Assembly (NCBI RefSeq): GCF_023243115.1
Contig: NZ_CP085081.1
Coordinates: 4,676,001-4,740,000 of the forward strand
Source of the DNA: Sediminicoccus sp. KRV36
GTDB taxonomy: Bacteria > Pseudomonadota > Alphaproteobacteria > Acetobacterales > Acetobacteraceae
Length of the DNA stretch: 64,000 nt
Direction: 5' to 3'
A model generated the notes under the pieces. The model did no database searches. It worked only from the letters and a program-made list of their open reading frames with translations, and was not told where the DNA came from. Shown here piece by piece: positions 13,936 to 53,087 of the stretch; the stretch's first letter is position 1; each line of letters opens with the position of its first letter. A program made the translations under genes and the position numbers.

Positions 13936-14902
13936 CGCCCCCCCGGGGGTCACGCGGGAGCAGGTCATCCTCGCCTATCGGATGTTCTTCGGCCGCGCGC
14001 CGGAGGATGAGGCCGTGATTCGTGCCGGGCAGGCCACCTGGCCGGACCTTTTCTCGATGGGCCGCGCCATGGCTGCCAGTGCGGAATTCGGCCTGCGCCA
14101 CGGCCCCAATCCCCATGCGCTGCCGCCGCTCGATGCCCCCACCAACCCGGTCGAGACCGAGGCCGACCCCGCGACGCTCCAGCGCATGGCGGAGCAGGTC
14201 GGCGGCTATTGGACGCGGGCGGGTGAAGCCGCCCCGCATTGGTCCGTGCTGACCGAGGAGCGCTTCCTGCCGCAGAATATCGCGGCCAATCTGGAAGCCT
14301 TCTATGCCGCCGGCGCCTGGGATGCGCAGGTGCTGGACGCCACCCTCGCGCGGATCGGCCGCCGCGCGGCCGAGTTCCGGCATTGCGTGGATTATGGCTG
14401 CGGTGTGGGGCGCGTCACGCTGCAGCTGGCGCGGCGCTTTCCGGAAGTGACCGGCCTCGATATCTCGGCGCCGCATCTGCACCTGGCGACCGAGACCTTC
14501 CGCCGCGCCGGCTTCGAGCATGTGACCCTGACACAGGTGATGCCGGATCACCTGATGCCGGTCGAGACATGCGACTTCTGGTACTCACGCATCGTCCTGC
14601 AGCATTGCCCGCCCCCGGTTGCGATGAACATCCTGCGGCAAAGCTTCCGCGCCCTGTCCACAGGCGGCGTCGCGATGTTTCAGATCCCGGTCTGGAGCCG
14701 GGACTACAGCTTCAACCTCCAGGCCTACCTGGCCGGCACGCCGGGGGCCGAGATGGAGATGCACGCCATCCCGCAGCGCGCCATCCTGGAACTGGCCGAT
14801 TGGCAGGGCCTGGTGCTGCGCGACCTGCGCGAGGACAGCTTCATCGCGGGCCGGCCGGCGGCGGCACTTTCCAACACCTTCACCTTCGAGAAGGTGCGGT
14901 AG
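13925..14902 (+). CDS. SAM-dependent methyltransferase with an N-terminal DUF4214-like segment
   Basis: A 325-residue protein. Residues 15-60 (ILAYRMFFGRAPEDE to ASAEF) resemble the DUF4214 helical unit found in secreted or glycosylation-linked proteins. Residues 150-300 form a class I methyltransferase with the SAM-binding motif CVDYGCGVGRVTLQLARRFP. The start is TTG at 13925 inside the aminotransferase gene; no other in-frame start occurs for many codons. The substrate is unknown. A similar N-terminal segment opens the 1033-residue glycosyltransferase at 38664-41765. Confidence 0.83.
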   Translation: MPSDAPPGVTREQVILAYRMFFGRAPEDEAVIRAGQATWPDLFSMGRAMAASAEFGLRHGPNPHALPPLDAPTNPVETEADPATLQRMAEQVGGYWTRAGEAAPHWSVLTEERFLPQNIAANLEAFYAAGAWDAQVLDATLARIGRRAAEFRHCVDYGCGVGRVTLQLARRFPEVTGLDISAPHLHLATETFRRAGFEHVTLTQVMPDHLMPVETCDFWYSRIVLQHCPPPVAMNILRQSFRALSTGGVAMFQIPVWSRDYSFNLQAYLAGTPGAEMEMHAIPQRAILELADWQGLVLRDLREDSFIAGRPAAALSNTFTFEKVR

Positions 14903-37608: not shown

Positions 37609-38667
37609 TCAGCCCTCCAGCCGCACCGCGTCATAGACAGCGCCCAGGATCGGGCTGATCCGGGCCGGGCGATAATGCCGCGCGCGTTCCAGACAGGCCG
37701 CCGCCAGGGCGCCATGGGCAGCCTCGGGCATGGTGAGCACATCGCGCGCGGCGCGGCGCATATCCTCGGCGGAGCCGGGCGTGAACAGCAGCCCATGCGC
37801 CTCGGCCGGCAGGATTTCCAGCAGCCCGGGCAGGCGCGGCGCCAGCAGCGGCCGCCCGAAGGTGAGCGCGAGCAGCGCCACGCCCGAACTCAACGGCCGG
37901 TCGTAATCCAGCACCACGGCGCGGGCGGCGCGGAACAGCCCGCCGGTCTCAGCCTCCGGGATGCGGCGGATATCCCAGTCGAGCGTGGCGCGGCCGGCCT
38001 GGGCGGCGCGCAGGGCATCCAGCGCCGCATCGCCCGGCTGAGATTCGCCCGCGATGGTGATCCGGGCCCCCAACCCGCTCAGGAACGCCTCCGGCAGCCG
38101 CTCCACCACACGGTCCAGCCGCTTGTAGCCGCGCAGCTTGCCGAAGCAGAGCAGCCCGGCCCCGGTGGCGGGTGCGGCACTCCCTGGCTCGGGCTCATAG
38201 ACGCCGAGATAGGAGGGGTGCGGCAGCAGGAACGCCTTTTGCGCGACGGGCCCCACCTGCGCCTCCAGCAGGGTCAATGCCTCGGTGCTGTGCAGCAGGA
38301 TGCGATGCGCCGTGGCGGCGATGGCCCGGCGCAGCTCCAGGAAGGCATCCGCGTCCAGCGCCTCATGCGGGGCGGCATTGTGCAGCGTCCAGAGGATGCG
38401 CCCGCCGGCCGCCCGGAATGCCGCCAGCCGCGCGGCCAGGTGCCGCACGGTCAGCAGCACCTCGGCCGCGCTCGGGATGCCGCGCAGCAGATGCTCCTCC
38501 CAGTGCAGATGCAGCAGGGCGGTGCCCTCCGGCAGAAGGGAAAAGGCGTCCTCCACCGTGCCGCGAATCGCGTCATAGCGCCCGGCCAGCCCGGCATGGA
38601 GCAGGCCGTGATAGGGGTTGTCCTGATAGATGGTGGCATTCACCACCGGGATGCCCGTGCCGCTCAT
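37609..38667 (-). CDS. GT-B glycosyltransferase (GT4-like), last gene of the glycan cluster
   Basis: A 352-residue protein. The N-terminal domain has HLHWEEHLLRGIPS and ILWTLHNAAPHE. The C-terminal domain opens with LLCFGKLRGYKRLDRVVERL, the GT4 donor-domain start, and continues DYDRPLSSGVALLALTFGRP. The pattern resembles GumK/mannosyltransferase-like enzymes. The substrate is unknown. Its ATG overlaps the stop of the 1033-residue glycosyltransferase by four bases, so the two are translationally coupled. Confidence 0.85.
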   Translation of the reverse strand: MSGTGIPVVNATIYQDNPYHGLLHAGLAGRYDAIRGTVEDAFSLLPEGTALLHLHWEEHLLRGIPSAAEVLLTVRHLAARLAAFRAAGGRILWTLHNAAPHEALDADAFLELRRAIAATAHRILLHSTEALTLLEAQVGPVAQKAFLLPHPSYLGVYEPEPGSAAPATGAGLLCFGKLRGYKRLDRVVERLPEAFLSGLGARITIAGESQPGDAALDALRAAQAGRATLDWDIRRIPEAETGGLFRAARAVVLDYDRPLSSGVALLALTFGRPLLAPRLPGLLEILPAEAHGLLFTPGSAEDMRRAARDVLTMPEAAHGALAAACLERARHYRPARISPILGAVYDAVRLEG

Positions 38668-41600
38668 CCGGGCAGGATCAGCGCATGCGCGGCAAAGCGC
38701 CGCGTGCCCAGCGGGAAGGGCAGGCGCGGCGTCGCCTCGCCGGCGCGGATGCGCTCATGCCAGGCCTCGGCGCTGGCGTGGTAATCGCTGCGGATGGTTG
38801 TGAAGCCGGTGCGGCCCAGGCCGAATTCCTCGCTCGCGGTGAGGGAGTCGGCGCGGGCGCGGCCGACGAGCAGGGGCCAGCGCAGCCGCGGCACCGCGCG
38901 TTCGCCAAAGGCCAGACCGATGCGCTGGATGAATTCCAGATCCGCCGCCACGCGCACGCTGTCGAAGAACCCGATCCGCTCCATCACCGCCGCGCGGCGG
39001 AAGATCAGCGAAATGCAGCAGAGATGCGCGATCTGCCCGCCCGCCTTGATGATGATCTCGCCCTCGCTCGTCATGCGCAGCCAATCGGTGGTGAGGCCGA
39101 TCAGATCCGGCCGGCGCAGCAGCATGCCCACGCTGCAGGCCAGGCGGTCCGGATGGGACCAGTCATCGGAATCCTGCAACGCCACGAAGGCGCCCGTGCT
39201 ATGCAGCAGGCCGATATTCTTGCTGACATAGGTGCCGTCATTGGTGGTTTTCAGGATCACCCGCACCCTGGGGTCACGCTGCTCGATCTCGCGCAGCAGG
39301 GCGGGGGTGGCGTCGCTGCTCGCATCATCCACGATGATGAGCTCGAGGTTGCGATAGCTCTGCTCCAGGATGGAGCGCACCGCCGTCAGCAGATAGGCCG
39401 CGCTATTGAAGCTGGTCATCACCACCGAGATTTTCGGCCCGTCCAGCACCAGGCCATCGGGGTCCGGGCCCGCGCCGCGCAACTGGTCCAGGGCGGCGCC
39501 GCCCAGGCCCGCGTCCCGGCGCAGCGGCCGCGCGCCGTATCGCGCGAACATGCCATCCAGCGCGGCGAGGCCGGCCGCCCAATCGCCCGCCTGAGTGAGG
39601 GCGGCGCAGCGGAACAGCGGCGCCTCGATCGGAAAGCTGCGCGCCACGCCCGTGGCCTCCAGCCGGGCCGCATGGCGCAGGGCGGCATCGGGTGCGCGCT
39701 GCTCCAGCGCGATGGCCATGGCGAGCAGCCCGAATTCCGGATCGGGCACGGGTGCGTCCAGCCAGGCCTGCGCCTCCAGCGCCGCCTCGGCAAAGCGGCC
39801 GGCGAAGAAATGATTGCGCGCATGCTCCCGCAGGATGCCGGGATCGCCCCGCGGAAGGTGCTCCGCCAGCAGCGCCTGCGCGGCCTCGATCCCGCCCGAG
39901 AGGCGCATGGCCTTGGCGGCGGCGATCACCGCGCGCTCGCCCCGCGCCTCCGCCGGCAGCCGCGCCCAGGCGGCAAGCACGCCGGCATGGTCGGTGAGAT
40001 CCTGCGCGAGATACATCAGGGCGGCGATGGGCGGCGCCCAGCCGGGCCGGGCCTCGGCCAGCGCCTCCAGCAGCGCCCGCGCCTCCGCCACTTGGCCGCC
40101 GGCGATGGCCAGACGCGCATGCTCCAGCCGCAGCGCGGGGGAAAGCGGGTCCAGCGCGAGCTTGCGGTGCAGGACGACGCGCCGCTGCGTCAGCAATTCC
40201 TCCAGCCGGGCGCGAGGGCGCAACGGGTCGGCGCGGCAGAGGTCCAGCTCGAAGGTGAAGCGCCGTTCGGCCGCCAGCTCATGCGTGGGGTGGGCGGCCA
40301 GAAGCTGGTCCAGCGCATCGGCGGCGCCCTGGTAATCGCCCGCCTGGCGGATGGCGAGGGCGCGCAGCAGCATGGTCTCCGCCTCATCCGGCCGTTGCGC
40401 CAGCGCGGCTTCGGCGAAGCACCGCGCGGCGAGGGCGTCCCCCGCCGCGGCGGCGGTGCGCGCCAGGGCACAGAGCAGCGCATGCGGGGCGGCGGGCGGC
40501 GGTGGCAGCCGCGCGAGGGCCGCATGCAGCAGCCATGCCCGCCCCTGTAGCGCCGGCGCGCCCAGCAGCGCCAGGGGGGTCGGGGCCAGGGCCTCGGCCA
40601 GGATTTCGGGCGGTGCGAAGCCGAGGGCGAGGCGCAAGGGGCCCTCCGCCGGCAGCGCCGACCCGGATGCGGCCTGGCCCTCGCGCAGCGCCAGCCGCGC
40701 GGCCAACTGCGGCACCATATCCCCGGGGGGGTCCAGCCGTGCGGCCTCGGCCAGGGCGGCATGGGCGCCGGGCAGGTCGTCCATGCTGGCCAGAAGCTCG
40801 GTCAGCCACAGCCACGCCTCGGCCAGGGCAGGGGTTTCCGTGGTGAGGCGGCGCAGCAGCCGGATCGCCTCGCCGCGCTGCCCGGCTTCGGCCATGGCCA
40901 GGGCGCGCTGCACCTGCCGATGGCCCGATGGCGGCCTGGATGATGCGGGGCTGGGTGATGCGGCGCTGGCCTGCGACACCGCATCCCGCAAGGCGATCAG
41001 CCCGGGCAGGGCCGCCTCCTCCGCCGCGCCGCATTCGAACCAGTCCAGCGCCGATTCCAGCCGCAGCCGCGAATGCCGATCCGTCAGCAGATGCAGCAGC
41101 AGCCCGGCCCAAGCCTGGCCAGAAGGCGGCTTGCCGGGTGCCAGGAACTGGGCCTCGGCCAGGGCGCGCCATTCGGGCGGCGCCTCGATGGCCGCAAACC
41201 CCGGCAAGGGCGCCAGCACCGCCTCCCGCCAGGCGGGCGAGAGAATCATCTGCCGCGCGGCGGCCAGGCAATTGCCCTCCGTGACGGGCAGAGGCGGGGC
41301 GGGGCCGCAGAGCAGATGTGGCAGCGTCTGCCGCCAATCGCCGGCGCCAGCGCGCTGCACCGTGCCGCCAAGCGCCTGGGCGAGGCCCGGCTCACTCTGG
41401 GCCAGCGCCGCGAGGTTGGCCGGATGGCGCAGCCATTCCGCCAGGGCCGTGGGCCAGCGCCGCGCGCCGGAGAGCCCCAGCGCCTGCGCCACCCAGGCGA
41501 TGAGGTCAGGGTCCAGCAGCGTCTGCGGCGCGGTGTCATCGCCTTGCAGCCGGGGCAGCACCTTCTGGCGAAACTCGGCCGAGCGCAGAAGATGCAGCAG

Positions 41601-41765
41601 AACCTCGGCCAGCGAGCGGCCGAGATGCGCCTCCAGGTCGCTCGCGCGCGCCGGCCAGCGGCCCAGGACCAGCCGGAAGGCCATTTCGGCATCGGCGCTA
41701 TCGGCCGGGAGGGTGATGTCGCGGAGCGACTTCAAGGCTGGGTTCCACTGCGCAGGGTCCGCCAT
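38664..41765 (-). CDS. Multidomain glycosyltransferase: DUF4214-like segment, TPR-like arm, GT2
   Basis: A 1033-residue protein. Residues 27-70 (AFRLVLGRWPARASDLE to RSAEF) resemble DUF4214. About 280-750 is an Ala/Leu/Arg-rich helical-repeat region with TPR-like units. About 770-1000 is a GT2 (GT-A) domain: PKISVVMTSFNSAAYLL, the metal-binding region VALQDSDDWSHPDR, and AADLEFIQRIGLAFG as the probable catalytic segment. The helical region probably docks a protein or glycan acceptor. The ATG at 41765 lies 11 bp after the preceding gene. The donor and acceptor are unknown. Confidence 0.83.
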   Translation of the reverse strand: MADPAQWNPALKSLRDITLPADSADAEMAFRLVLGRWPARASDLEAHLGRSLAEVLLHLLRSAEFRQKVLPRLQGDDTAPQTLLDPDLIAWVAQALGLSGARRWPTALAEWLRHPANLAALAQSEPGLAQALGGTVQRAGAGDWRQTLPHLLCGPAPPLPVTEGNCLAAARQMILSPAWREAVLAPLPGFAAIEAPPEWRALAEAQFLAPGKPPSGQAWAGLLLHLLTDRHSRLRLESALDWFECGAAEEAALPGLIALRDAVSQASAASPSPASSRPPSGHRQVQRALAMAEAGQRGEAIRLLRRLTTETPALAEAWLWLTELLASMDDLPGAHAALAEAARLDPPGDMVPQLAARLALREGQAASGSALPAEGPLRLALGFAPPEILAEALAPTPLALLGAPALQGRAWLLHAALARLPPPPAAPHALLCALARTAAAAGDALAARCFAEAALAQRPDEAETMLLRALAIRQAGDYQGAADALDQLLAAHPTHELAAERRFTFELDLCRADPLRPRARLEELLTQRRVVLHRKLALDPLSPALRLEHARLAIAGGQVAEARALLEALAEARPGWAPPIAALMYLAQDLTDHAGVLAAWARLPAEARGERAVIAAAKAMRLSGGIEAAQALLAEHLPRGDPGILREHARNHFFAGRFAEAALEAQAWLDAPVPDPEFGLLAMAIALEQRAPDAALRHAARLEATGVARSFPIEAPLFRCAALTQAGDWAAGLAALDGMFARYGARPLRRDAGLGGAALDQLRGAGPDPDGLVLDGPKISVVMTSFNSAAYLLTAVRSILEQSYRNLELIIVDDASSDATPALLREIEQRDPRVRVILKTTNDGTYVSKNIGLLHSTGAFVALQDSDDWSHPDRLACSVGMLLRRPDLIGLTTDWLRMTSEGEIIIKAGGQIAHLCCISLIFRRAAVMERIGFFDSVRVAADLEFIQRIGLAFGERAVPRLRWPLLVGRARADSLTASEEFGLGRTGFTTIRSDYHASAEAWHERIRAGEATPRLPFPLGTRRFAAHALILPG

Positions 41766-41776
41766 CCTAACCCGGA

Positions 41777-42478
41777 TCAGTCCGGAACAGGGAGGCCCGC
41801 CGCCAGCGCGATGCGCGTGATGTCGCGCCGCGCCAGCGCCATCCGTTCCGCCAGGCTGGGCGCGTCGCGGCGCAGGATCTGGCGGATGAAGCTGGCCTTG
41901 GTGCTGTTGAAGACATCCCGCTCCTCGATGCCGATGCCCGGCCAGAGTCGGACCAGGTTTTCCGCCAGGACGCGTTGCAGCAGATCCTGGTCATTCGGCG
42001 CAAAGCTCCAGCCGGCCGTGCTGCCCGCCAGCATCTCCTCCGTCACCTCCTGCAGGAACAGCCGGTGCCACTCCGTCAGGATGAGCGCCGTGTCCTGATG
42101 GGCGAAATTGAAGAAGACGACGCCGGCATTGATGTCCGACAGGGCCTTGTTGTGGCCCAGCGCGCCCAGGATGGAACGATGCGCGCGGCTGGCCAGAAAT
42201 CCGTGCAGGTCAAAGTCGAGATCAGCCACATAGGCATCGGCGTCCAGATAGAGCAGCCAGCCGGTGAAGCCCTCATCCAGCAGGCCCTTCAACAGCAGGA
42301 TCCGGTTGAAGGTGGCGTGCCAGGGGTGGCAGCCGCGCGCAATGCCGATATGCGCCGCGTAGCGGATGCCCTGGCGCGTGCAATAGGCGCGATTGACCAG
42401 GCCGGTCACCTCCAGGAAGCCGCGATACACCACGGGGTCCGCGGTCTGCAGCAGCAGGGCGGCGGGGGAGCCAGCCAA
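41777..42478 (-). CDS. GT34-like (galactosyl GMA12/MNN10-type) glycosyltransferase
   Basis: A protein of about 233 residues. LLLKGLLDEGFTGWLLYLDADAYVAD holds the DxD nucleotide-sugar site, INAGVVFFNF is the typical acceptor-side block, and PNDQDLLQRVL the late conserved motif, as in GT34 and related small GT-A enzymes. The start was set at TTG 42478, 5 bp after the methyltransferase stop. A longer in-frame version from 42628 would run far into the methyltransferase gene and looks like a shadow. No signal peptide is seen. The product linkage is unknown. Confidence 0.78.
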   Translation of the reverse strand: MAGSPAALLLQTADPVVYRGFLEVTGLVNRAYCTRQGIRYAAHIGIARGCHPWHATFNRILLLKGLLDEGFTGWLLYLDADAYVADLDFDLHGFLASRAHRSILGALGHNKALSDINAGVVFFNFAHQDTALILTEWHRLFLQEVTEEMLAGSTAGWSFAPNDQDLLQRVLAENLVRLWPGIGIEERDVFNSTKASFIRQILRRDAPSLAERMALARRDITRIALAAGLPVPD

Positions 42479-42483
42479 GACGC

Positions 42484-43092
42484 TCAGGCCTGCCGGCTGA
42501 GGCCGAAGCTCAGATGGCCATGGCTTTCGAGGGTGAGGTAAGCGTATTTCCAGCCGTAATCCACGCAGAATTCGTGGCAGGCCTCGATCACGCCATAGGG
42601 CCAGGGGGTGATGACATTCCCGTTGCAATAGTCATGGCCCAGGATCAGCCCGTCCTTCTTCACCTTGGCATGGCACAGCCGCAGCTCCTTGGCCGTGGTC
42701 GCGTAGGAATGATCCGTGTCGATATAGACCCAGTCGAAGGTGGCATCCGGGAAGCCGGGCAGCACCTGCACGGACATACCCCGGTTCACCACCAGCTGGC
42801 CGGCCGCGAAACGCTCGGCGAATTCGGCCTCGATCCTGGCCAGGCCCTCGGCGTAGCGGGGCGAATCCCACACATCGATCAGGTGCAGGCGGGCGGGCTT
42901 GTTGCGGCGCAGGATCTGGCGCGTGAAATCGCCAAAGGCCACGCCGATCTCGGCCGCGACACCGCCACGCGGCAGGCGTTCCAGCAGCGCCTCGCGGTCG
43001 GGAACGACGCGGCAATCATGGGTGTGCAGATCATCGAGGCGGGTTTTCGGCGCGGCGGCCTTGATGGCGCGGCGTGCATCGGGCGTCGTCAT
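42484..43092 (-). CDS. Class I SAM-dependent methyltransferase (Methyltransf_24-like)
   Basis: A 202-residue protein. The SAM site is GGVAAEIGVAFGDFTRQILR, motif II is LHLIDVWDSP, and FDWVYIDTDHSYATTAKELR with LILGHDYCNG is typical of the TylF/Methyltransf_24 group that O-methylates sugars or small molecules. Its place between glycosyltransferases suggests methylation of a glycan residue. The ATG at 43092 lies 4 bp after the preceding stop. Confidence 0.85.
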   Translation of the reverse strand: MTTPDARRAIKAAAPKTRLDDLHTHDCRVVPDREALLERLPRGGVAAEIGVAFGDFTRQILRRNKPARLHLIDVWDSPRYAEGLARIEAEFAERFAAGQLVVNRGMSVQVLPGFPDATFDWVYIDTDHSYATTAKELRLCHAKVKKDGLILGHDYCNGNVITPWPYGVIEACHEFCVDYGWKYAYLTLESHGHLSFGLSRQA

Positions 43093-43096
43093 CGGC

Positions 43097-46000
43097 TCAT
43101 GCCTCCCGGCTGGGGGCTGGGCGCGCCGCCGCGCCCAGCCGCGCATGCAGGGCGGCGCATGCGGCGGCCGCTGCCATCAGGCCGGCCCAGCGCCCCTCAC
43201 CCTGCGACCAGGCCTGCACCGCCGCGGCGCGCGCGGCATGGCCCTCGATATCCGCCGCGATCCGCAGCAGCGCCTTGTGGATGGCCTGGGGTGTGGCATC
43301 CGCCAGGACCCAGCCGCCGCCGGTCTGCCGGATGGCGGCCGCGGCCGCGCCGCCTTCCAGCGTGAGGACCGGCAAGCCGGCGGACCAGAGCATGGGCAGC
43401 GCCGCCTCAACCTCTGGCGAGAGGATGGCGGCCAGATGGGCGGGCGGCAGCGGTACAGCGGGCTGCGCCTCACGCATCCGCAGGATCTCCAGCCGCTCCT
43501 TCGCGTCCAGCGCGCTCGCCTCGCGCTGGAGCCTGGCCAGGTTCGCATCATCGCCGACCACCAGCACGCGCAGTGGCTCGCCCGGCCGTGGTGCTGGCGG
43601 CGTGACCGGGGCAGCCTGGTTGGGGGCGCCAAGCACATGGAACCGGCGCTCATCCAGGGCCGGAAAAATCCGCAGGACACTGTCCCGCGCCGCATCGGAG
43701 GGCAGCAGCAAGGCATCGCATTGCGCCAGCACCGGGCCGAGCATGGCGCGCCAGTTATGCACCCAGCGGTCGCGCAGCGGCGGCACCGCGTCGCGCGGCC
43801 AGAAGGCCGGCTGGCAATCCCCGGCGCCGGCCGTGCAGAGCCCGCCGCAGGCCTGCATCTGCGCGTCCAGCAAAGCGGCATTGGGGCAGACCGGATAGAA
43901 ATCCCGCAGCGCCAGCACCACCGGCAGCTCCAGCAGCCGCGCCCGCTCGACCAGGCCCAGGCTGTGGCCGGCGATATGCCGGATATGCAGGCCTTCCACC
44001 GCCTCGCCCTGCATCCATTCCGTGACCACCGCATCCATCTCGGCCGAGCGATGATCGAGCACGCCGAGCGGATGCCGCAGCCGATGCGTCGCGAGCAGCG
44101 CCTCCGCCCCGGCCGTAAGGCGCGAGAGCTGCATCTCGCGGCCGGTGCAGCGCAGCAGCAGCGGCTCGCACACGGCATCCAGCGCCGCGATGAAGGCGAG
44201 CTCCGCCGCCTCCAGATCCGGATCGGGCAGCCCCAGCGCGAAGAGCCATCGCGGCCGGGGCCGCGCCCCGCCCGCCAGGGCATCACGCGTGGTGATGGCC
44301 AGGCGGTGCGACAGGGTCAGCCAGGCAGGGTCCGCCAGCGCCGCCTCGCGCAGGCGCGGCCATTCCGCGTAGCGGTGGCCCAGCAGCGCCTCCTGCGTCG
44401 GGGAAGCCAAGGGGGCGGTGACGCCCATCAGGCAGCCATCCTCGATGCCATGCGCATAGCCCAGGTAGCGGGCGCGCAGGGACCAATCCGCCTGCCAGCC
44501 ATCATCGTCCGGGAAGCCCGCCGCATCGAAGGCGCCCACCTCGTCCAGGGCGGCGCGGCGCAGATACAGGCAGGCCCCCTGCATGGCCGGCATGCCGGGC
44601 AGCAGCCCGCCGGCGGCCTGCGCCACCAGGCGCTGCGCATCCTCGGCACCCCATTCCTGCCAGAGCGGTGCGGCGCGATGCGCGATCTCGGGCGGCAGGG
44701 CGCTGACGCTGGCCAGACTGTCACCCGCCAGCGCCGCGAAAACCAGGCGCTGCAACCAGCGCGGCCCGGGCGCAGCCTCGGGCATCAGCAGGACCACGTC
44801 ATCGCGGCCCGCCGCCGCGATGCCGCGGTTGCAGGCCGCCGCCCGCCCGCCCTCGGCGCGGAGCACGCAAGCCGGGTCATGGGCCGCGATCAGCGCGGTC
44901 ATGGCCGGGCTGGTGCAGCCGTGATCCACCAGGAAAACACGGGCGGAGGCCGGCCCATGCGCCCGCAGCGCCGCGAGGCAGCGCGCGGCCTCGGCATCGC
45001 CATCACGCAGCGGCACGATGACGCTGACACCCGGCCGGCGTTCACGCAGCCCCAGCGTCGCGCGCAGCGCCCGCGCCGGATCCATCACGCGGCGCGGCAG
45101 GCCGGTGAGGCGCATGGGCGGCCCCAGGCGCTGCCCGGTCAACCGGCCGCGCAGCTCGACCACATCGCCTTCCGTGGTGGTCGTGAGCAGCAGGCGCGTC
45201 TCGAATTCGCCCCGGGCGGTGAGGAATTGATAGGCCTCCCCATTCACCAGGAGTTCCAGCGGGACCCCTTGCTCCGGTTGTCCGGCCAGGGCCGCCCAGC
45301 CGCGGATGCGCTCCACCGTGGCTTCGCGCAGCCCGCCCTCCTCCCGCACGGGATGGATGCGGAGTTCGCGGCGGTCCAGCAGGGTATCGCCACTGAGCAG
45401 CAGCGCCTCGACGCGCCCGCCATCCGCCCAGCCGGCCTCATGCAGCAGGCTGGCGAGTTCGGCCGGCGGCAGCCAGAGCCGCGCCTCGCCGGCGGGCCCG
45501 GCCAGAGCGCGGGGGGCGGCGGTCAGGCTGCGCCCGGACCGGTGCAGCAGGATGCGCCCCGGGGCCACGCCCTCGGCGAATTGCGCGAGTAACCCCTCGC
45601 CCTCCAGCCATTGGCCACCGCTGGGTGATGCGACGGGTTCAGGCAGGGTGAAGCGCACGGGCGCGCCGCCGCCCGCCAGCTGCAGCGTCGCATAGAGCGC
45701 CGCACCCGGCTCGACGACGGGATCAAGCCCGCCATGCCAGGCCATGAATTCGAGCTGCGCCTTGGCGCGGATGCGCTTGGTCAGCAGCAGGTGCATCTCG
45801 AGGCTGACGGGCGAGGCGCCTTGCGTCACGCCGAGCCACAGCAGGGTCCGGTTCTCCCGCGGGCCCAGTTCGGCCGCCTGCAAGCCGAGGCCGAATGGCA
45901 GGCACAGGCCAGGCGGGAGGGGATCGGGGAGGGATTGCGGCGGCAGCGGAAGGATCACACGGACATCCTTCTCGCAACGCGACGGGTCCAGCTGGATGAT

Positions 46001-47320
46001 CCCGCGCGTGGCATCCTCGATGGTGATCACGCAGGCCTGGGCATCCGCCGCCGAGCGAAACACCACGCTGGCTTCGCCGATGAGCGGCCGCACACGGCGG
46101 CGCTGGGCGGGGCCGGGTTGGGCGGGGCCGGGCAAGAGGGGGCTGGGCAAGGGGGGGCCAGGCCGCTCGGGCGCGGATGGGGCGGCCGGGGTTGCCGCTG
46201 GGGGTGGGGCCGGTGCGAGCCCAGGCTGCGACGCTTCCGCCTGTGGCGAGGCCATGCGGGCCTGCTCGGATGACCATGCCGTATCGGCGAACGCGCCGGG
46301 TTCATCTCGCGCAGCCGCACAAGGTTCCTCAGGCACTGCCGCGCCGGGTTCCTCAGGCACTGCCGCGCCCAGTTCCTCAGGCACTGCCGCGCCCGGTTCC
46401 TCAGGCGCAGCCGCTCGATGTTCCTCGCGCGCAGCCGCGCCGGGTTCTTCAGGCGCTGCCGCGCCAGGCCGAATCAGCCCGGCCGCCGTCGAAGGGGGCA
46501 CAGGCGTTGGCGCCCCGGCCAGGGCAGCCCCGGCTGCCAGCGGCGGTGTTGGCCCTGGCGGAGCGACGCCGGGCGGGGAAGGCTCGGCCCGTATGGCCGG
46601 AGCGCTGGACGCATCCGCCTCATGCGTCGCGGCTGGCGCGTGGGGCAAGGCTGCCTCGGCCGCAGCAGCGGGCGCCGTGCCGCCAGGACGCGGCGTGGCG
46701 GGCGATGCGGGCAGCGCGGCCTCCGCCCAGGAAAACGCCTCAACCAGCGGCGCTGCGTCAGCGGGCGGCGACAGGGCCGGGTCTGGCTTCGGGGCCGCCT
46801 GCGCGTCGGGCATGTCTTCGGCGGGCAAAGCGGAGGGCGCGGTTGCTGCGGCATCCAGCGTCGGGCGCAATTCCACATCCACCAGCACCGGCTGGCTGCG
46901 CGGCGCCAATTGCAGGGCGAGATACAGCGCGCCCTTCGCCTCGGGCCATTCGCCGCGCGCAAAGGACCAGTTCCATCGCCGCCCATTGGCCGCAATGGCC
47001 GGCAGGTTTTCCAGCCTGCGGGCAATGCCGAGATCATCGGCGGATGGCCCTTGCAGCAGCGCGATCCACTCGACCGGCCGCGCCTGGCTGGCTTTCTCGG
47101 CCCGCAATTCCAGCGCGATGTCGAGCTGGCCGACCATCACCCCATCCAGCTGGGCCGGCAGGGGCAGGATCAGGCGCAACGTCGCGTTGCAGGCACGGCC
47201 ATCGACCAGGATGGCAGTGCCCTCCGGCGTGGCGAGCTTCGCCTGGCCGGCCCGGGCATCCGAGTCCCGCTTCCAGACCACCAGCCAATCCGAGCCCTCG
47301 ATGCGATCAACGACGGCCAT
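43097..47320 (-). CDS. Giant multidomain glycosyltransferase (GT2 plus GT4-like) with repeat-rich linker
   Basis: A 1407-residue protein, among the largest in the window. About 1-150 and 400-560 are beta-rich segments that resemble each other (LRLILPLPAQL against VRVILPLPPQSL). About 150-390 is an Ala/Pro/Glu linker with 8-residue repeats. About 760-1000 is a GT2 domain (GVSVIVPLRDGDAEAARCLA). About 1090-1390 is GT4-like, with RVLVVGDDANLARLQ and LWSAGLPVLTLEGG. No signal peptide is present. It lies between the GT4-GT9 fusion and the methyltransferase. The substrate is unknown; the linker may vary in length between strains. Confidence 0.82.
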   Translation of the reverse strand: MAVVDRIEGSDWLVVWKRDSDARAGQAKLATPEGTAILVDGRACNATLRLILPLPAQLDGVMVGQLDIALELRAEKASQARPVEWIALLQGPSADDLGIARRLENLPAIAANGRRWNWSFARGEWPEAKGALYLALQLAPRSQPVLVDVELRPTLDAAATAPSALPAEDMPDAQAAPKPDPALSPPADAAPLVEAFSWAEAALPASPATPRPGGTAPAAAAEAALPHAPAATHEADASSAPAIRAEPSPPGVAPPGPTPPLAAGAALAGAPTPVPPSTAAGLIRPGAAAPEEPGAAAREEHRAAAPEEPGAAVPEELGAAVPEEPGAAVPEEPCAAARDEPGAFADTAWSSEQARMASPQAEASQPGLAPAPPPAATPAAPSAPERPGPPLPSPLLPGPAQPGPAQRRRVRPLIGEASVVFRSAADAQACVITIEDATRGIIQLDPSRCEKDVRVILPLPPQSLPDPLPPGLCLPFGLGLQAAELGPRENRTLLWLGVTQGASPVSLEMHLLLTKRIRAKAQLEFMAWHGGLDPVVEPGAALYATLQLAGGGAPVRFTLPEPVASPSGGQWLEGEGLLAQFAEGVAPGRILLHRSGRSLTAAPRALAGPAGEARLWLPPAELASLLHEAGWADGGRVEALLLSGDTLLDRRELRIHPVREEGGLREATVERIRGWAALAGQPEQGVPLELLVNGEAYQFLTARGEFETRLLLTTTTEGDVVELRGRLTGQRLGPPMRLTGLPRRVMDPARALRATLGLRERRPGVSVIVPLRDGDAEAARCLAALRAHGPASARVFLVDHGCTSPAMTALIAAHDPACVLRAEGGRAAACNRGIAAAGRDDVVLLMPEAAPGPRWLQRLVFAALAGDSLASVSALPPEIAHRAAPLWQEWGAEDAQRLVAQAAGGLLPGMPAMQGACLYLRRAALDEVGAFDAAGFPDDDGWQADWSLRARYLGYAHGIEDGCLMGVTAPLASPTQEALLGHRYAEWPRLREAALADPAWLTLSHRLAITTRDALAGGARPRPRWLFALGLPDPDLEAAELAFIAALDAVCEPLLLRCTGREMQLSRLTAGAEALLATHRLRHPLGVLDHRSAEMDAVVTEWMQGEAVEGLHIRHIAGHSLGLVERARLLELPVVLALRDFYPVCPNAALLDAQMQACGGLCTAGAGDCQPAFWPRDAVPPLRDRWVHNWRAMLGPVLAQCDALLLPSDAARDSVLRIFPALDERRFHVLGAPNQAAPVTPPAPRPGEPLRVLVVGDDANLARLQREASALDAKERLEILRMREAQPAVPLPPAHLAAILSPEVEAALPMLWSAGLPVLTLEGGAAAAAIRQTGGGWVLADATPQAIHKALLRIAADIEGHAARAAAVQAWSQGEGRWAGLMAAAAACAALHARLGAAARPAPSREA
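46324..46467 (-). repeat. Six 24-bp tandem repeats in the giant glycosyltransferase gene
   Basis: On the plus strand the units start GTTCCTCAGGCACTGCCGCG at 46324, 46348, 46372, 46396, 46420 and 46444; the last three are diverged. They encode an 8-residue unit close to PEEPGAAV (residues about 284-332). The period is a multiple of three, so copy-number change keeps the frame. Confidence 0.9.
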
Positions 47321-47374
47321 GCGATCCTCCGCTCTGACGGCACGCCATGGCGGGATATTCCGGCTGGTCCAGCA

Positions 47375-49708
47375 TCATCCGATCGCTTCCCCGGCCCTCA
47401 GCCGTTCCAGCAGGGCTGCCTCCACCTGCTCCACCGTGATCTCGCTGATGCAGCGGCAGCGCAATTGCCGGAAGGCGCCGTCCGGCCCGGCCAATTCGCA
47501 GGGTGCGCAGGGCTTGTCGAGCGCGATGATGACGCTCTGCGCGCCCAGCGGGCCCCGCGTGCGCGGCGCCGTCGGCGCGAACAGCGCCACCAGCGGCAGG
47601 CCGAGCGCGTTGGCGATGTTCATCACGCCGCTGTCATTGGCCAGGAAGGCGCTGCAATCGCGCATCGCGCGGGCCATTTCCTCGACCGTGCCGCCCGTGC
47701 GGTCCTCGGTGCCGGGCACATGCTCCTCCGGCGTGCCGAAGGAGGCGACAGCGATGCCCCGGGCGAGGAGGCGCTGCGCCAGCTCCTCGAAATACGGCCA
47801 GCGCTTGGCCGCCCAGATCCCCCCCTTGGAGCCGGCATGCAGGCCCACCAGCAACCGCGGCGGCGGCACCTGGCGATGCAGCTCCCCCATCTGGCAGGCG
47901 CGCACATCCTCGGCGTCATAGGGGATGCCCAGCAGGGCCGAAGCCGACGCCAGGTTGAACTCGGCTTCATGCAGCGCGTGGGAGGCATCGAACACATCCC
48001 ACTCGCGCGAATGCACGACGCGTTCGGCGCTGAATTCCGGCACGAGCGAGCCGAAGCTCTGCAACACGAAGACCAGCGCATAGCGCCGGCGCAGAACGAT
48101 GTCGGTCAGCGGAAACACGTGGCGGACATGCGCGCTGTTCGCCACCACGGCCAGGGCGCCCGGCGAATCTCCCGCCACCACCACATCCACCGGCCGGCCC
48201 AGGCGGCGCGCCAGGTTGCGCAGCAGCGGCGTGGTATGGATGACATTGCCGATGCCCGAACCGACGGCCACCAGCACCGGCTGATCCAGCCCGGCGAGCA
48301 ACTGCGCGAGGCGCCCCTGCTGCGCGGCGAAGCGATGGCGGTCGGCATTCTCCCGCGCGCGGCGTGACCTCTCGCGCCAGTATTCGGCATCTTCAAACAG
48401 CCGCGCCAGCTCCTCCGCCCAAAGCCCGGGTTCCTCCGGCAGGCTGACCCCGCTTTCGCGCAGCAGATAGGGCAGGTTGCCGCGATCCGAACCGATCACG
48501 GGGATGCCCTCCCGCTGCGCCTCGATCACCACGCGGCTGAAGGTCTCGACGAAGCGATAGCTCGGCACCAGCACCGCGCGGGCGCGGGCATAGAGCGGCT
48601 GCATGTCCTGCACGCGCTCCAGCACTTCCACATTCGAAAGCCCCGCATCCCGCGCCATCGCCTGCGCGCCGCCGATATCCGATTGGGTGGCAAGCGCGAC
48701 GAAACGGCAGCTGGGCAAGCGCGCGGAGAGGCGCGCCGAAAGTGCCAGCATCATGCCAAAGCCCTTGTCCATCCTGGCATTGGCGAGCAGCACGACGTCC
48801 CGCGCGCCCGCATCCGGCGCTGCCATGGACGGGGCATCATCCGGCAGGGAGGGCAGCACCGTCACGCGCGGACCGAAATGCGCCTCCACCACATCCCGCG
48901 TGAATTCGGAATTGGCATAGACAGCATCGGCATCGCTCAGCAGGAATTCGAATTCGGCGCGGCGTTGGTGGCCTTGTGGGCAATGCGGGAAATAGCCGCC
49001 ATGCGCGGTGGTCGGGTGGAACAGCTCACGCCAGAAATGCACGCCGAAGATGATCCGCACATCCAGGAAGCGCAGCGCCGCCGCCACCTCGAACCCCAGG
49101 CCGGAAACGACATGGATCAACCCCAGGCGCCGTTGCAGGGCGAAGCGGAACAGCGCCTCCGGCGTCTCGGCGAGGAAGGCGTAGGGAATCCCCTCCACTT
49201 CACCCGTCTCGCCCAGGCGTTCGGCGCGGGTGCCAAGGATGATCGGCCGGTAGCCGAGTGCCCGGTACAGCCGCGCCATCTGGAGCAGGAAATGCTCCAC
49301 CCCGCCGAATTTCTCGACACCGAAGCGTGAGATCAGCGCCACCTCCCGGCCAGCCGCCGGGCCTGGCCGAAGCTCCGGCAAGGTCTGGCGCGGGCGATGC
49401 GCCAGCGGGTGTTGCCGCGCGAGGGCGAGCAGTGCTTCGACGGGTTCCTCGGGGGCGACCAGACCATGCGCCAGCAGCTCGCGCAGATAGGCCAGGCGCC
49501 AGATGCGCCGGGGGGGCGCGCCAGGCGCCCCTTCCCATTCCACCAGCGCCGCGCGGTCCGGCAGGTTGGGCAGCATGGCGGCTGGCTGGGCCGGATCGAA
49601 CTCCACCCAATCCGCATCCAGCGCCGCGACTTGGCCGGCCAAGCGAAGATGCCCCGGCTCCGCCTGCGAGCAGGACAACGGCTCCGCCTGGGGCAGGCCC
49701 TCGCTCAA
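47375..49708 (-). CDS. GT4-GT9 fusion glycosyltransferase
   Basis: A 777-residue protein. About 120-470 is a GT4 enzyme (ALISRFGVEKFGGVEHFLLQ at its start; donor region VLVPSYRFVETFSRVVIEAQ). About 470-777 is a GT9/heptosyltransferase-like domain: VAVGSGIGNVIHTTPLLRNL, LVGLHAGSKGG, FLANDSGVMNIANALGLPLV and a Cys-rich end CAPCELAG. These domains normally occur as separate proteins, so one chain may add two consecutive sugars. The start is TTG at 49708, overlapping the TPR gene stop; a longer in-frame version from 49765 is less likely. Confidence 0.85.
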   Translation of the reverse strand: MSEGLPQAEPLSCSQAEPGHLRLAGQVAALDADWVEFDPAQPAAMLPNLPDRAALVEWEGAPGAPPRRIWRLAYLRELLAHGLVAPEEPVEALLALARQHPLAHRPRQTLPELRPGPAAGREVALISRFGVEKFGGVEHFLLQMARLYRALGYRPIILGTRAERLGETGEVEGIPYAFLAETPEALFRFALQRRLGLIHVVSGLGFEVAAALRFLDVRIIFGVHFWRELFHPTTAHGGYFPHCPQGHQRRAEFEFLLSDADAVYANSEFTRDVVEAHFGPRVTVLPSLPDDAPSMAAPDAGARDVVLLANARMDKGFGMMLALSARLSARLPSCRFVALATQSDIGGAQAMARDAGLSNVEVLERVQDMQPLYARARAVLVPSYRFVETFSRVVIEAQREGIPVIGSDRGNLPYLLRESGVSLPEEPGLWAEELARLFEDAEYWRERSRRARENADRHRFAAQQGRLAQLLAGLDQPVLVAVGSGIGNVIHTTPLLRNLARRLGRPVDVVVAGDSPGALAVVANSAHVRHVFPLTDIVLRRRYALVFVLQSFGSLVPEFSAERVVHSREWDVFDASHALHEAEFNLASASALLGIPYDAEDVRACQMGELHRQVPPPRLLVGLHAGSKGGIWAAKRWPYFEELAQRLLARGIAVASFGTPEEHVPGTEDRTGGTVEEMARAMRDCSAFLANDSGVMNIANALGLPLVALFAPTAPRTRGPLGAQSVIIALDKPCAPCELAGPDGAFRQLRCRCISEITVEQVEAALLERLRAGEAIG

Positions 49709-50904
49709 CCCGTGCGGACTCCGACGAGGCTGGCCAGCGGTCCCGCATGGCGGGCTTCCAGCCAACGCTGGAGGATGCGCACCGCGAAGCCCGCGCCGCC
49801 GCGCGATGGATCGAGCGCCGCCGCGGTCTCGGCCGCTTCCAGCGCCGCTTCGATGCGGCCCAGCCGGGTCAGCAGCCTCGCCCGCTCCATATGCAGCTCC
49901 GGCTGGTCCGGCGCGCGGGCAATCGCCGCCTCCAGATGTTCCAGCGCATCGGGCAACCGCCCGGCATGCAGCACGAGATGCGCCAGGGCGCGCAGCGGGC
50001 GATGGTCTTGCGGGCGCATCGTGGCGGCGCGGTGCAGCAGCTGCTGCGCCTCCTCCGCCAGTTCCGGGCGGGGCTCCACCTGGCCATCATCGCCCTGCGC
50101 CAGCCTGGCCGCGATGCGCCCGCTTTCGAGCAGGTAGCGCGGTTCATCCGGATAGGCGGCAAGGCTGTTCTGCAGGATACGGCGCGCCTCCTCCAATTGG
50201 CCGAGATGGCCCAGGGATCGCGCCAGGAACAGCAGCGCGGTGTGCCGCTGCGGATAGCGCGCCTGAATCCACCGCAGCGCCTCCACCGCCTCCGCATGCC
50301 GGCCCAGATAGTAGAAGGCGCGGCCGCGCCAGGTGACCAGCCGGGCATCCCTCGACTTGCCGGCAAGGGACCCGCCCGTCAGGGCCAGCACCACGTTCCA
50401 TTGCCGCGACTGGAAAGCCTTCTCAACCAGCGCGGCGATCTGCTCGGGCTCCAGCCGGCCGAGCAGCTTTGCGATCTCGGCATCCTCGGCTGCCGATGCT
50501 GGCCGGGGGTCGGGTGGCCCGGGCTCAGATGGCTTGGGCGGTTCGGCGGCGGCCGGCCCGTGGCGGAAAGCGAGTTCCAGGCGGCGCTGGCCATCGCCGG
50601 TGAAGAAGAGGGCGGTATTGGCGCCAGGCCGCAGCAGGCCGGGCGGCAGCGCCACGCGAAAGCCCAGCGGGGCGTGCGGCGGGATGCCTGGCGGGGCAAC
50701 GGCCAAGGGAAGATTGGCGATGTGCCGGCCCAGCGCCGCTCCATTCACCTCAAGCCCGAAGATGACGGGCCAAAGCGGGCGCGAAGGGTCCTGCAACCAG
50801 CCGCCCAGTGCCGCGCCCTCGGTGACTTGCACCCCGCCCAGCAGGGCAGCGTCCTGCGCGGCACCCAGGGGTGGCGCCCATGCTCCGGGAGCTTCAGCCA
50901 TCAT
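49705..50904 (-). CDS. TPR-repeat protein of the glycan cluster
   Basis: A 399-residue protein. About 1-120 is a beta-rich segment that resembles the beta segments of the giant protein downstream (VNGAALGRHIANLPLAV, FRVALPPGLL). About 160-390 consists of TPR units such as RGRAFYYLGRHAEAVEALRW and HLVLHAGRLPDALEHLEAAI. It is likely a scaffold for the cluster's glycosyltransferases; no catalytic motif is seen. The ATG at 50904 overlaps the DUF6165 stop by four bases and its own stop overlaps the fusion enzyme. Confidence 0.85.
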   Translation of the reverse strand: MMAEAPGAWAPPLGAAQDAALLGGVQVTEGAALGGWLQDPSRPLWPVIFGLEVNGAALGRHIANLPLAVAPPGIPPHAPLGFRVALPPGLLRPGANTALFFTGDGQRRLELAFRHGPAAAEPPKPSEPGPPDPRPASAAEDAEIAKLLGRLEPEQIAALVEKAFQSRQWNVVLALTGGSLAGKSRDARLVTWRGRAFYYLGRHAEAVEALRWIQARYPQRHTALLFLARSLGHLGQLEEARRILQNSLAAYPDEPRYLLESGRIAARLAQGDDGQVEPRPELAEEAQQLLHRAATMRPQDHRPLRALAHLVLHAGRLPDALEHLEAAIARAPDQPELHMERARLLTRLGRIEAALEAAETAAALDPSRGGAGFAVRILQRWLEARHAGPLASLVGVRTG

Positions 50905-51383
50905 GCCGCTCCCCCATAGGATTTCACTTCCACGACCTGCGAGCCGAACAGCGCATTCAGCCGCGCCTTGATCGCCGCACGCTCGTCATTGCGGGTGTAG
51001 ACCGCGCGTGCGAGGGCGATGAAGCCAGGGCCGAAATCCTGCCGCACGTCATGCGCGCGGATGTCATCCTCAATCTCCCAGAGCTGGCGATTGACCGCGG
51101 CCAGCGCCGCCATGCCCGCCCGGATGTCGGGCCCATCCCGGTGGCGCAGCGCCGCATCCAGAAGTTCAAGCAGCATCGCAAGCTCCGTCGCCACCAGGGC
51201 CTGCTTGGCCGCATCGCGGATGAAGCACGCCTTCAGCCGCAGGATGCTCACCTTGTCCACCAGCTCGCCAAAGGAGACGGGCGCCCAAATCTCGAAGCGG
51301 CCGGGGCTGCCCGGGGCCTCTGCGGCCTGGCCAGCCAACCCCTGGTCTGCCGCCCCCTCGCCTGCCGAAGTGGAGCCCGTCAA
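50901..51383 (-). CDS. DUF6165 family protein
   Basis: A protein of about 160 residues. The conserved core is IWAPVSFGELVDKVSILRLK and LWEIEDDIRAHDVRQDFGP, followed by YTRNDERAAIKARLNALFGS. The family has no known function and is often beside glycosyltransferases. I placed the start at TTG 51383 behind AGGGTGGA, because the longer frame to 51497 is low-complexity and reaches the preceding gene's region. It is the first gene of the tightly overlapped block. Confidence 0.72.
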   Translation of the reverse strand: MTGSTSAGEGAADQGLAGQAAEAPGSPGRFEIWAPVSFGELVDKVSILRLKACFIRDAAKQALVATELAMLLELLDAALRHRDGPDIRAGMAALAAVNRQLWEIEDDIRAHDVRQDFGPGFIALARAVYTRNDERAAIKARLNALFGSQVVEVKSYGGAA

Positions 51384-51509
51384 GAATCCACCCTTCCATC
51401 CTGCCCGCGTGCCGCGCCGGTCCTGGTGGTGACCCGGCCCGCCCGCTCCCGTGCGATCATGCGCCGCTTTCCTCTGCGTCAGCGAAGCTTCCGCCATCGG
51501 CGCGGTGGG

Positions 51510-52883
51510 TCAAGCGGCCTCGCTGCCGAGCTGCCGCAGCGCAATCGCGAATTCCCGCTCGAAACCGGCCAGCGCCGCCTCCATCCCGGGCGAATCCTCC
51601 GCCTGGGCAGCGCGCTCCACCTGCTCCAGCGCGGGCACCAGCGCCGAAAGGCCGAAATTGGCGGCAAGGCCACGCAGGGCATGCGCCATCAGCCGCGTGG
51701 CCCCCCCATCCCCCGCGCGCACACCGCTGCGCAATTGCGGGGCGAGGGCCAGCATTTCCTCCCGGCAGAGGTTGCGCGCCTCCGCCAGCCCCGGCGCCGG
51801 GAGATCGGCCTGGGCTTCAAAGAGCCGGCTGCCATCGGCCATGGTGATGGCGCGGATGCGCGGGCGATTGCCAGGGCCGCGCCGGCCATTGTCGTTCTTG
51901 GCGGAACGCACATCGAGGTGCCGCGTCAGCATGCCCAGCGGCAGGTCCCGCCGCAGCGTCTCGGGCGGGAGGAGGGCGGCGAAGGCTTCGTTCCAGGCAA
52001 AGAGCTTGCCCTCCGGGTCCACCAGCGCCACCGGATTGGGCCAGGCCTCGATCAGCGCGGCCTCACGCCGCTCGGCCGCCACGCGCTCCGTCTGGGAGAG
52101 GCGCATGCGGGCCTCGTTCACGCTGAGCTGCGCCGCATGCCGCGCGAGGCTGCCGCGCAGCGCGGTGAGCTTGAGCTCCACGCGGTCGGTCCGCTCCAGA
52201 TGCTTGCGAAAGATGAAGCCCAGCGTGCCCAGTCCGAACAGCGGGATCAGCCAGACCGCCCAGGACATGGCCTCGGGCGAGGCGCTGCCATCCACCCGCA
52301 GCGCGCCCTCACGCACCCAAAGGCTGGCATGCACATCGCCCGGCGTGCCGCTGGCGGCCAGTTCCGTGCCGAGGCCGGTGACCAGGCGCAGCGCGGCCCC
52401 CGCTGGCGGCGCCAGCAGCGCTTCCAGCAGCGCGACCGGGATGCGCAGCATGGGGGTCGGCGCGCCCGGCTGCGGCGGAACGAGGAAGGCCAGCACCTCA
52501 CGCGGGCCGGTCGTGGTGCGGGGCAGCGGCCAGAAGCGAAGCTGTCCGGGCTCGGCACCGCTCAGCGTCGCGGTCACATCGGGCGGCAGGGCGGCGATGG
52601 CGACGCCCGGCAGGGCCCGCGCCTCGCGCTGGGCGGCCAGCAGCCGCCCCTCCACCAGCTGCAGCTCATCCTTCACGGCCAGGGCGGCGCGCGCGGAAGC
52701 CTGGGTGGCCGTCGTCAGGGCCGCCTGGCGCAGCCCATGCGTGCCATCCTCGATCAGCACCCAGCTCGCGACCAGCAGGGTCGTGACGAGGACCATGAAG
52801 GCGATGGAGGAGCGGTGCAGCAAGGACTGGAACAGCGCGCGGCCCGGCATGGCCATGGCTGAGAAACCCCGAGAACGTTTCAT
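51510..52883 (-). CDS. Membrane PAS-domain sensor ending in an Hpt domain, no kinase domain
   Basis: A protein of about 457 residues. Membrane segments are near 28-48 ([20 protein letters not shown]) and 213-233 ([19 protein letters not shown]), with a periplasmic domain between them. A short coiled coil, a PAS domain ([20 protein letters not shown]) and a C-terminal Hpt-like helix bundle ([20 protein letters not shown], phosphoacceptor His) follow. No H-box plus HATPase is present, so it probably passes phosphate rather than making it. The start is uncertain (52883 or 52856). It lies 126 bp upstream of DUF6165 on the same strand. Confidence 0.78.
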
Positions 52884-53087
52884 GGCAATAAACAGCCACG
52901 CGAAGGGTGCCGCAAGCTCCATCTTGCCGCGGCCCGCTTTGCGCCGATCGGCCGGTTTGCCGCGAAGATCGGGGCGCGGGCTTGTCCGGGGCCGGCCCGG
53001 GTGCGATTGTGCGTATCGCATCGCAACATCACGTCAGACCGTCCGCGCCGCATGGCATCAAGGGGCGGCGCAGAGGGTATTGAGGAC

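Follow-up and report, generated by a model that had tools for sequence, protein, structure and literature searches.

What do the eight genes at positions 37609-51383 of this stretch of the Sediminicoccus sp. KRV36 genome modify, and by what means? The window, that is the whole 64,000-nucleotide stretch analysed (contig NZ_CP085081.1, positions 4,676,001 to 4,740,000), had been described in a sequence-only reading as holding eight same-strand genes with a non-standard set of glycosyltransferases (GT), proposed to glycosylate a protein such as flagellin or a surface adhesin in the cytoplasm. All eight open reading frames (ORFs) were confirmed on the minus strand, where they fill the interval in the ORF list. 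Comparison across genomes identifies DUF6165, the product of the first gene, as a partner of GT9-type transferases, a new result that we hold more firmly than the reading of the cluster as a whole. According to that wider reading, to which we give a probability of roughly 45%, the cluster forms a unit for glycosylation in the cytoplasm, guided by tetratricopeptide repeats (TPR), with a core of GT9-type transferase, TPR and DUF6165 and with a likely secreted or surface protein as acceptor.

The partnership was evaluated in the 50 DUF6165-positive genomes of a 385-genome sample of Alphaproteobacteria and in five more; G359 was missed by the local model and left out, giving 54 loci. The sequence-only reading had put forward, as a check, a search for co-occurrence of DUF6165 with these glycosyltransferases in other genomes; a GT9-like domain lies within 1.5 kb of DUF6165 or is fused to it at 33 of the 54 loci. 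The GT9 models were seeded partly from five surveyed loci, and without these the count was 29 of 49. GT9-like ORFs numbered 36 in the roughly 162 kb near DUF6165 and 3 in the 349 kb lying more than 3 kb from it. The nearest GT9 at the 33 positive loci was of a stand-alone type in 20 and of a TPR-linked type in 13. Among 98 proteins, comprising 92 immediate neighbours within 350 bp of DUF6165 and six long DUF6165 ORFs, PF01075 was the commonest Pfam family (28 proteins), TPR families occurring in up to 15. All four Azospirillum fusions found carry GT9-like and DUF6165 domains by the local models, the GT9 model having been seeded with one of them, and a 724-amino-acid (aa) plasmid protein of A. 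ramasamyi combines TPR, GT9 (22.5 bits at a cut-off of 22) and DUF6165 according to Pfam. The tie to GT9 provides a family of unknown function with a testable role.

In AT-rich, small genomes (loci L099, L106, L124, L017, L100, L105, L109 and L110) DUF6165 directly adjoins a GT9-like gene of 313-355 aa; as genes of this length are too short for a TPR arm, the DUF6165-GT9 partnership does not need TPR. Directly downstream of DUF6165, L101 and L130 encode proteins with GT9-like matches (1639 and 1650 aa, respectively); in the 1639-aa protein of L101 Pfam finds repeated TPR and GT9 stretches.

The window's DUF6165 protein passes the curated Pfam cut-off (PF19662, 28.7 against 27 bits) and, aligned with 10 further members of which two are congeneric, shows 22 invariant columns; the family has at least 2,201 database relatives. 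An AlphaFold monomer (mean pLDDT, the predicted local distance difference test score, of 86.9) contained four helices and the predicted fold is a four-helix bundle, for which no informative structural match was obtained. DUF6165 was not named anywhere in the literature searched. The protein does match DUF4254 weakly, and the excerpted text of PMC9425974 describes a flavobacterial DUF4254 family as 'Linked to ADP-heptose:LPS heptosyltransferase, RfaF' (LPS, lipopolysaccharide), a comparable pairing of a weakly related DUF with a GT9 heptosyltransferase, albeit in another phylum and in a text that mentions neither TPR nor additional GT domains.

The features of the cluster are listed below, together with one flanking gene; G005, G014 and G017 denote three congeneric genomes and G000 the window genome.

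50901-51383, minus strand: DUF6165 protein, 160 aa (the ORF could begin at 51497); PF19662 at 28.7 bits, weak match to PF14063/DUF4254
49705-50904, minus strand: TPR protein, 399 aa; TPR families by Pfam, orthologues of 50-56% identity in G005, G014 and G017
47375-49765, minus strand: GT4-GT9 fusion, ORF of 796 aa with its true start probably at ~49.7 kb; PF13692/PF13439 plus PF01075, orthologues of 67-72% identity
43097-47320, minus strand: giant protein, 1407 aa; GT2-like and GT4-like domains, both degenerate, and an N-terminal half with two segments of weak similarity
42484-43092, minus strand: S-adenosylmethionine-dependent methyltransferase (Methyltransf_24), start inferred, ORF extending to 43146; PF13578 at 61.2 bits
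41777-42478, minus strand: GT34-like protein, 233 aa; PF05637 on relatives, no Pfam match of its own
38664-41765, minus strand: TPR-GT2 protein, 1033 aa; PF00535 at 95.8 bits plus TPR, orthologues in G005, G014 and G017
37609-38667, minus strand: GT4 protein, 352 aa; PF13692, orthologues of 75-79% identity, directly downstream of TPR-GT2 in all four genomes
51510-53021, minus strand: flanking Hpt-domain protein, not part of the system, which marks the place of module A; PF01627 as sole Pfam match

The cluster is made up of two modules, A (DUF6165, TPR, GT4-GT9 fusion and giant protein) and B (TPR-GT2 and GT4), and the methyltransferase and GT34-like genes sit between them in the window. The genome is a single contig of 4.9 Mb. 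The cluster end at 51383 fits the start of the 160-aa DUF6165 protein in a public gene call (P0016), and a call based on third-codon-position GC picked seven of the eight ORFs, the methyltransferase being dropped by its overlap rule. DUF6165 overlaps the TPR gene by 4 bp, as does TPR-GT2 the GT4 gene. The TPR and GT4-GT9 genes abut or overlap, depending on an uncertain start; the remaining gaps are 54 bp (GT4-GT9 to giant), about 4 bp (giant to methyltransferase, with a likely methyltransferase start at 43092), 5 bp (methyltransferase to GT34-like, taken from the 233-aa call, P0156) and 11 bp (GT34-like to TPR-GT2).

A GT9-type domain is present in the fusion, since PF01075 was matched at 61.1 bits (cut-off 22). 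The GT2 match of the giant protein was barely above its cut-off (28.7 against 27 bits) and the GT4 match sub-threshold. The earlier GT34-like label stands on several relatives that carry PF05637, while the protein itself lacks a Pfam match. A DUF4214 label given to the TPR-GT2 protein was not upheld by Pfam, which detected no such domain in the whole protein (E<=0.1), in its first 100 aa (E<=10) or in the first 100 aa of three orthologues and of the G379 protein described below, leaving the label to motif resemblance. Elsewhere in the window, the N-terminus of a methyltransferase (13925-14902, plus strand) resembles the TPR-GT2 start by eye; Pfam finds no DUF4214 in it either.

Conservation was evaluated in 21 congeneric genomes. 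DUF6165 together with a high-scoring GT4-GT9 fusion was found in four (G000, G005, G014 and G017), which were also the only ones with a full-length TPR-GT2 homologue, so that the claim of a distinctive glycosyltransferase set holds in that its genes co-occur in the same four genomes. The other 17 have neither module in full length, the TPR-GT2 query matching single GT domains only. As to the concern that the genes might not be conserved together, the modules co-occur in four genomes but are unlinked in G005, G014 and G017, being found together only in the window genome. Module A in these three has the order Hpt gene, DUF6165, TPR, GT4-GT9, giant and then, by reading, AhpD/AhpC-like genes, with a short-chain dehydrogenase gene called between the Hpt gene and the module in G005 and G017, and module B lies on a different contig downstream of genes read as metX/metW-like. 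In G008 and G015 the Hpt and isocitrate dehydrogenase neighbours are kept and the cluster is absent, the Hpt gene adjoining a thiolase-like gene without module A. G005, G014 and G017 are draft genomes, G017 being 57% complete with module A spread over two contigs and its GT4-GT9 gene split; the three probably form one clade and hence do not represent three independent events.

Independent recurrences of the architecture were found outside the genus. A Sulfitobacter plasmid encodes a TPR protein, at the end of which the first part of the GT4 domain is matched, then a GT4-GT9 protein and DUF6165, followed by rfaD, a HAD gene, an AGE epimerase gene and rfaE2; one of its further proteins, of 1673 aa, has GT4 and GT9 at its end. 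This plasmid (L039) is 78 kb long with many polysaccharide genes, among them ADP-heptose genes adjoining its DUF6165, and with a DUF2793 gene. In G379, DUF6165 occurs with a protein whose C-terminal GT9 is 49% identical to that of the window over 287 aa, a two-GT2 protein (by reading) and adjacent rfb-like nucleotide-sugar genes. Because of these two recurrences an ADP-heptose-type donor is favoured, and their settings indicate that the unit also lives in polysaccharide regions.

Candidate acceptors were sought among the neighbours of DUF6165. On four Azospirillum plasmids the fused TPR-GT9-DUF6165 gene and a gene annotated 'calcium-binding protein' are transcribed divergently, the latter encoding a giant of ~2,400-2,800 aa made up of simple Thr-rich repeats. 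A. lipoferum 4B and A. oryzae are among the strains with this arrangement. GDP-mannose dehydratase genes (4/4) and rfbH (2/4) lie within 12 kb of the fusions. In G190 DUF6165 and a protein combining TPR with GT9 come after a 1347-aa RTX protein (18% Thr). In G330 a 1958-aa RTX protein (15% Thr, 10% Ser) shares its strand with the genes that come after it, namely those for a sub-threshold GT9 protein, DUF6165, two GT4 proteins, an ATP-binding cassette (ABC) transporter and HlyD, the last two of the type I secretion kind. A giant Big/cadherin/RTX region lies near DUF6165 on the opposite strand in G276, and 109 bp separate DUF6165 from a flagellin gene in G104, on a contig that also carries a FliF gene and a C-methyltransferase gene. 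Across 62 surveyed loci and plasmid regions a composition filter returned six Thr/Ser-rich giants, Azospirillum accounting for four; the G276 giant came in addition, from a wider fetch. In 404 kb of other loci, which include further flanks of surveyed loci, the filter returned none. These giant-protein, secretion and flagellin neighbours constitute ready test systems. Judged from such fusions and neighbours outside the genus, a protein acceptor is plausible, and to this extent the earlier proposal of protein glycosylation survives. The window genome encodes two RTX-like ORFs, L137:1276-12036 (3586 aa) and L138:6814-13671 (2285 aa), with Thr+Ser of ~16%.

Working from the computed gene content, module co-occurrence, DUF6165-GT9 association, TPR-GT9-DUF6165 fusions and motif losses, we infer a sugar donor, an order of action, accessory and scaffold roles and a protein acceptor as follows. 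The TPR arms would hold the acceptor, for which a surface or secreted protein with its gene elsewhere in the genome is the likeliest candidate. To it the GT9 domain would add a sugar that is probably heptose-like, the fused GT4 acting either earlier or later. DUF6165 may assist the GT9 enzyme as an accessory subunit, and the giant protein is more likely a scaffold. Module B, through its TPR-GT2 and GT4 proteins, could extend the glycan, which in the window species would be decorated by the GT34-like enzyme and the methyltransferase. A bolder generalization, which we consider speculative and rather unlikely, is that DUF6165 and its relative DUF4254 are dedicated accessory subunits steering GT9-fold heptosyltransferases to protein acceptors and, with TPR arms, form a widespread undescribed cytoplasmic machine that glycosylates flagellins and giant surface proteins rich in Thr/Ser; on this view the window would hold an elaborate version in which a 1407-aa pseudo-glycosyltransferase scaffolds two co-inherited modules.

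Several results weigh against a TPR-guided protein glycosylation unit. No GT9-like domain lies within 1.5 kb at 21 of the 54 DUF6165 loci, and these include the window, G005 and G014, where GT9 is found at ~2.6 kb; the partial seeding of the GT9 models from surveyed loci also counts here. The GD motif of the GT9 domain, whose Asp we take to be the catalytic base, reads GN in six of seven subfamily members, the window's included. The sequence-only reading had suggested a search for linked flagellin or adhesin genes; Thr/Ser-rich giants are present at a few loci and flagellin in G104, and most of the 33 GT9-positive loci show no protein target among the genes read. Four of the seven giant-protein cases come from the single genus Azospirillum, where 'calcium-binding' is an annotation and no Pfam family, RTX repeat included, was found in the two giants scanned, and a query from an Azospirillum giant matched 12 of the 21 genus genomes in a pattern that did not follow that of the cluster. 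The window cluster contains no RTX, flagellin or adhesin gene, and no glycosylation target was recognised in the window gene list. A Wzx gene lies upstream at the G330 locus, and the Sulfitobacter and G379 members sit among polysaccharide genes.

Such settings are what would be expected if the genes encoded auxiliary glycosyltransferases for LPS core, O-antigen or exopolysaccharide, with priming, flipping and polymerising genes elsewhere and TPR serving only to assemble the enzyme complex, an explanation we regard as a serious contender at somewhat under even odds. The Sulfitobacter and G379 members adjoin sugar-nucleotide, exporter or sulfotransferase genes, and the GT9 domain of the fusion resembles WaaF and, below their cut-offs, LPS heptosyltransferase II models (TIGR02195, 60.2 against 134.6 bits). 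The sequence-only reading had noted the absence of Wzx/Wzy, ABC exporter and sugar-nucleotide genes. This is true of the eight genes by Pfam, but a locus with Bac_transf, Polysacc_synt (Wzx), Wzy_C and Wzz is present elsewhere in the genome (L139; G000 C1:4447000-4466999), with four Wzy_C matches in all, and so is an hldD-type epimerase gene for ADP-heptose. The absence of a local flippase is therefore weak evidence. As the epimerase was above cut-off in 18 of the 21 genus genomes, ADP-heptose is probably general in the genus. On the other side, no lipid carrier, flippase or exporter gene was read among the called genes within or adjacent to the modules of the four genus genomes that have them, and the Azospirillum fusions are divergent from giant repetitive proteins on four plasmids, although sugar genes lie within 12 kb there too. 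Conventional Wzx/Wzy loci share with the cluster GT2 and GT4 enzymes and a methyltransferase, whereas none of the eight genes, nor the three relatives' loci by reading, includes a priming, flipping, polymerising or export gene.

Cytoplasmic glycosylation of flagellin in the manner of FlmG, the flagellin O-glycosyltransferase of Caulobacter crescentus, is improbable. In FlmG a flagellin-binding TPR domain is combined with a GT-B domain (excerpt of PMC7591256), and the unit proposed here would likewise be cytoplasmic and alphaproteobacterial, with TPR selecting the protein and GT-B transferring the sugar; the G104 locus and the flagellin gene of the window genome fit this as well. The TPR and GT9 domains are nevertheless on separate polypeptides in the cluster, whose sole TPR-GT fusion carries GT2 and which has DUF6165, GT2, GT4 and the giant protein besides. 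FlmG-type enzymes modify flagellin with pseudaminic acid; the donor favoured here is of the ADP-heptose type. Flagellin is encoded in 19 of the 21 genus genomes and the cluster in 4, and no glycosyltransferase was read among the called genes in the 20 kb around the window genome's flagellin gene. The earlier suggestion of flagellin as the target is thus not supported in this genome.

Motif losses affect parts of the cluster. In an alignment of 30 giant-protein relatives, 23 retain the GT2 NSD motif and 7 have lost it (P0121-P0126 and P0147; P0121-P0124 are the giant proteins of the window, G014, G005 and G017). The window copy alone has lost the GT4 motif's second Glu. On this basis the giant protein is more likely scaffold-like than an enzyme. 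In the GT9 subfamily, ND(S)G and a four-Cys cluster with C-x2-C-x12-15-C-x-C spacing were kept in all seven members. That these degenerate GT2, GT4 and GT9 motifs and the patchy distribution mean that much of the cluster no longer functions is very improbable, since the eight ORFs are open, orthologues in G005 and G014 are full length at 50-79% identity, the other GT9 motifs and the EX7E motif of the fusion's GT4 are kept, and the GT9 Asn and GT2 loss are common to orthologues and hence old and kept.

The nearest characterised analogues are FlmG and TibC, the latter a GT9 enzyme, and the cluster is assigned to neither group. The excerpt of PMC4358343 on the bacterial autotransporter heptosyltransferases (TibC/AAH) gives Cys-339, 342, 358 and 370 for TibC. 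The four cysteines form an iron finger in this group; the window subfamily has four cysteines in the C-terminal part at a different spacing. Modification of a surface protein is proposed here too. The PF01075 match places a GT9-type heptosyltransferase domain in the window fusion, which differs in being joined to GT4 and in the Asn of its GD motif. No autotransporter was recognised on reading the window gene list, no domain search for autotransporters having been made. The literature searched held no description of such a DUF6165/TPR/GT9 system. If a protein acceptor were confirmed, the cluster would represent a further TPR-guided cytoplasmic glycosylation route in Alphaproteobacteria besides FlmG, one using heptosyltransferase-type enzymes.

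Two observations concern the surroundings of the modules. In G017, more sugar-transferase-like genes (L030:8090-12278, by reading) adjoin module B on the opposite strand. Nine of the 21 genus genomes contain strong matches to the Hpt-domain protein directly upstream of the cluster.

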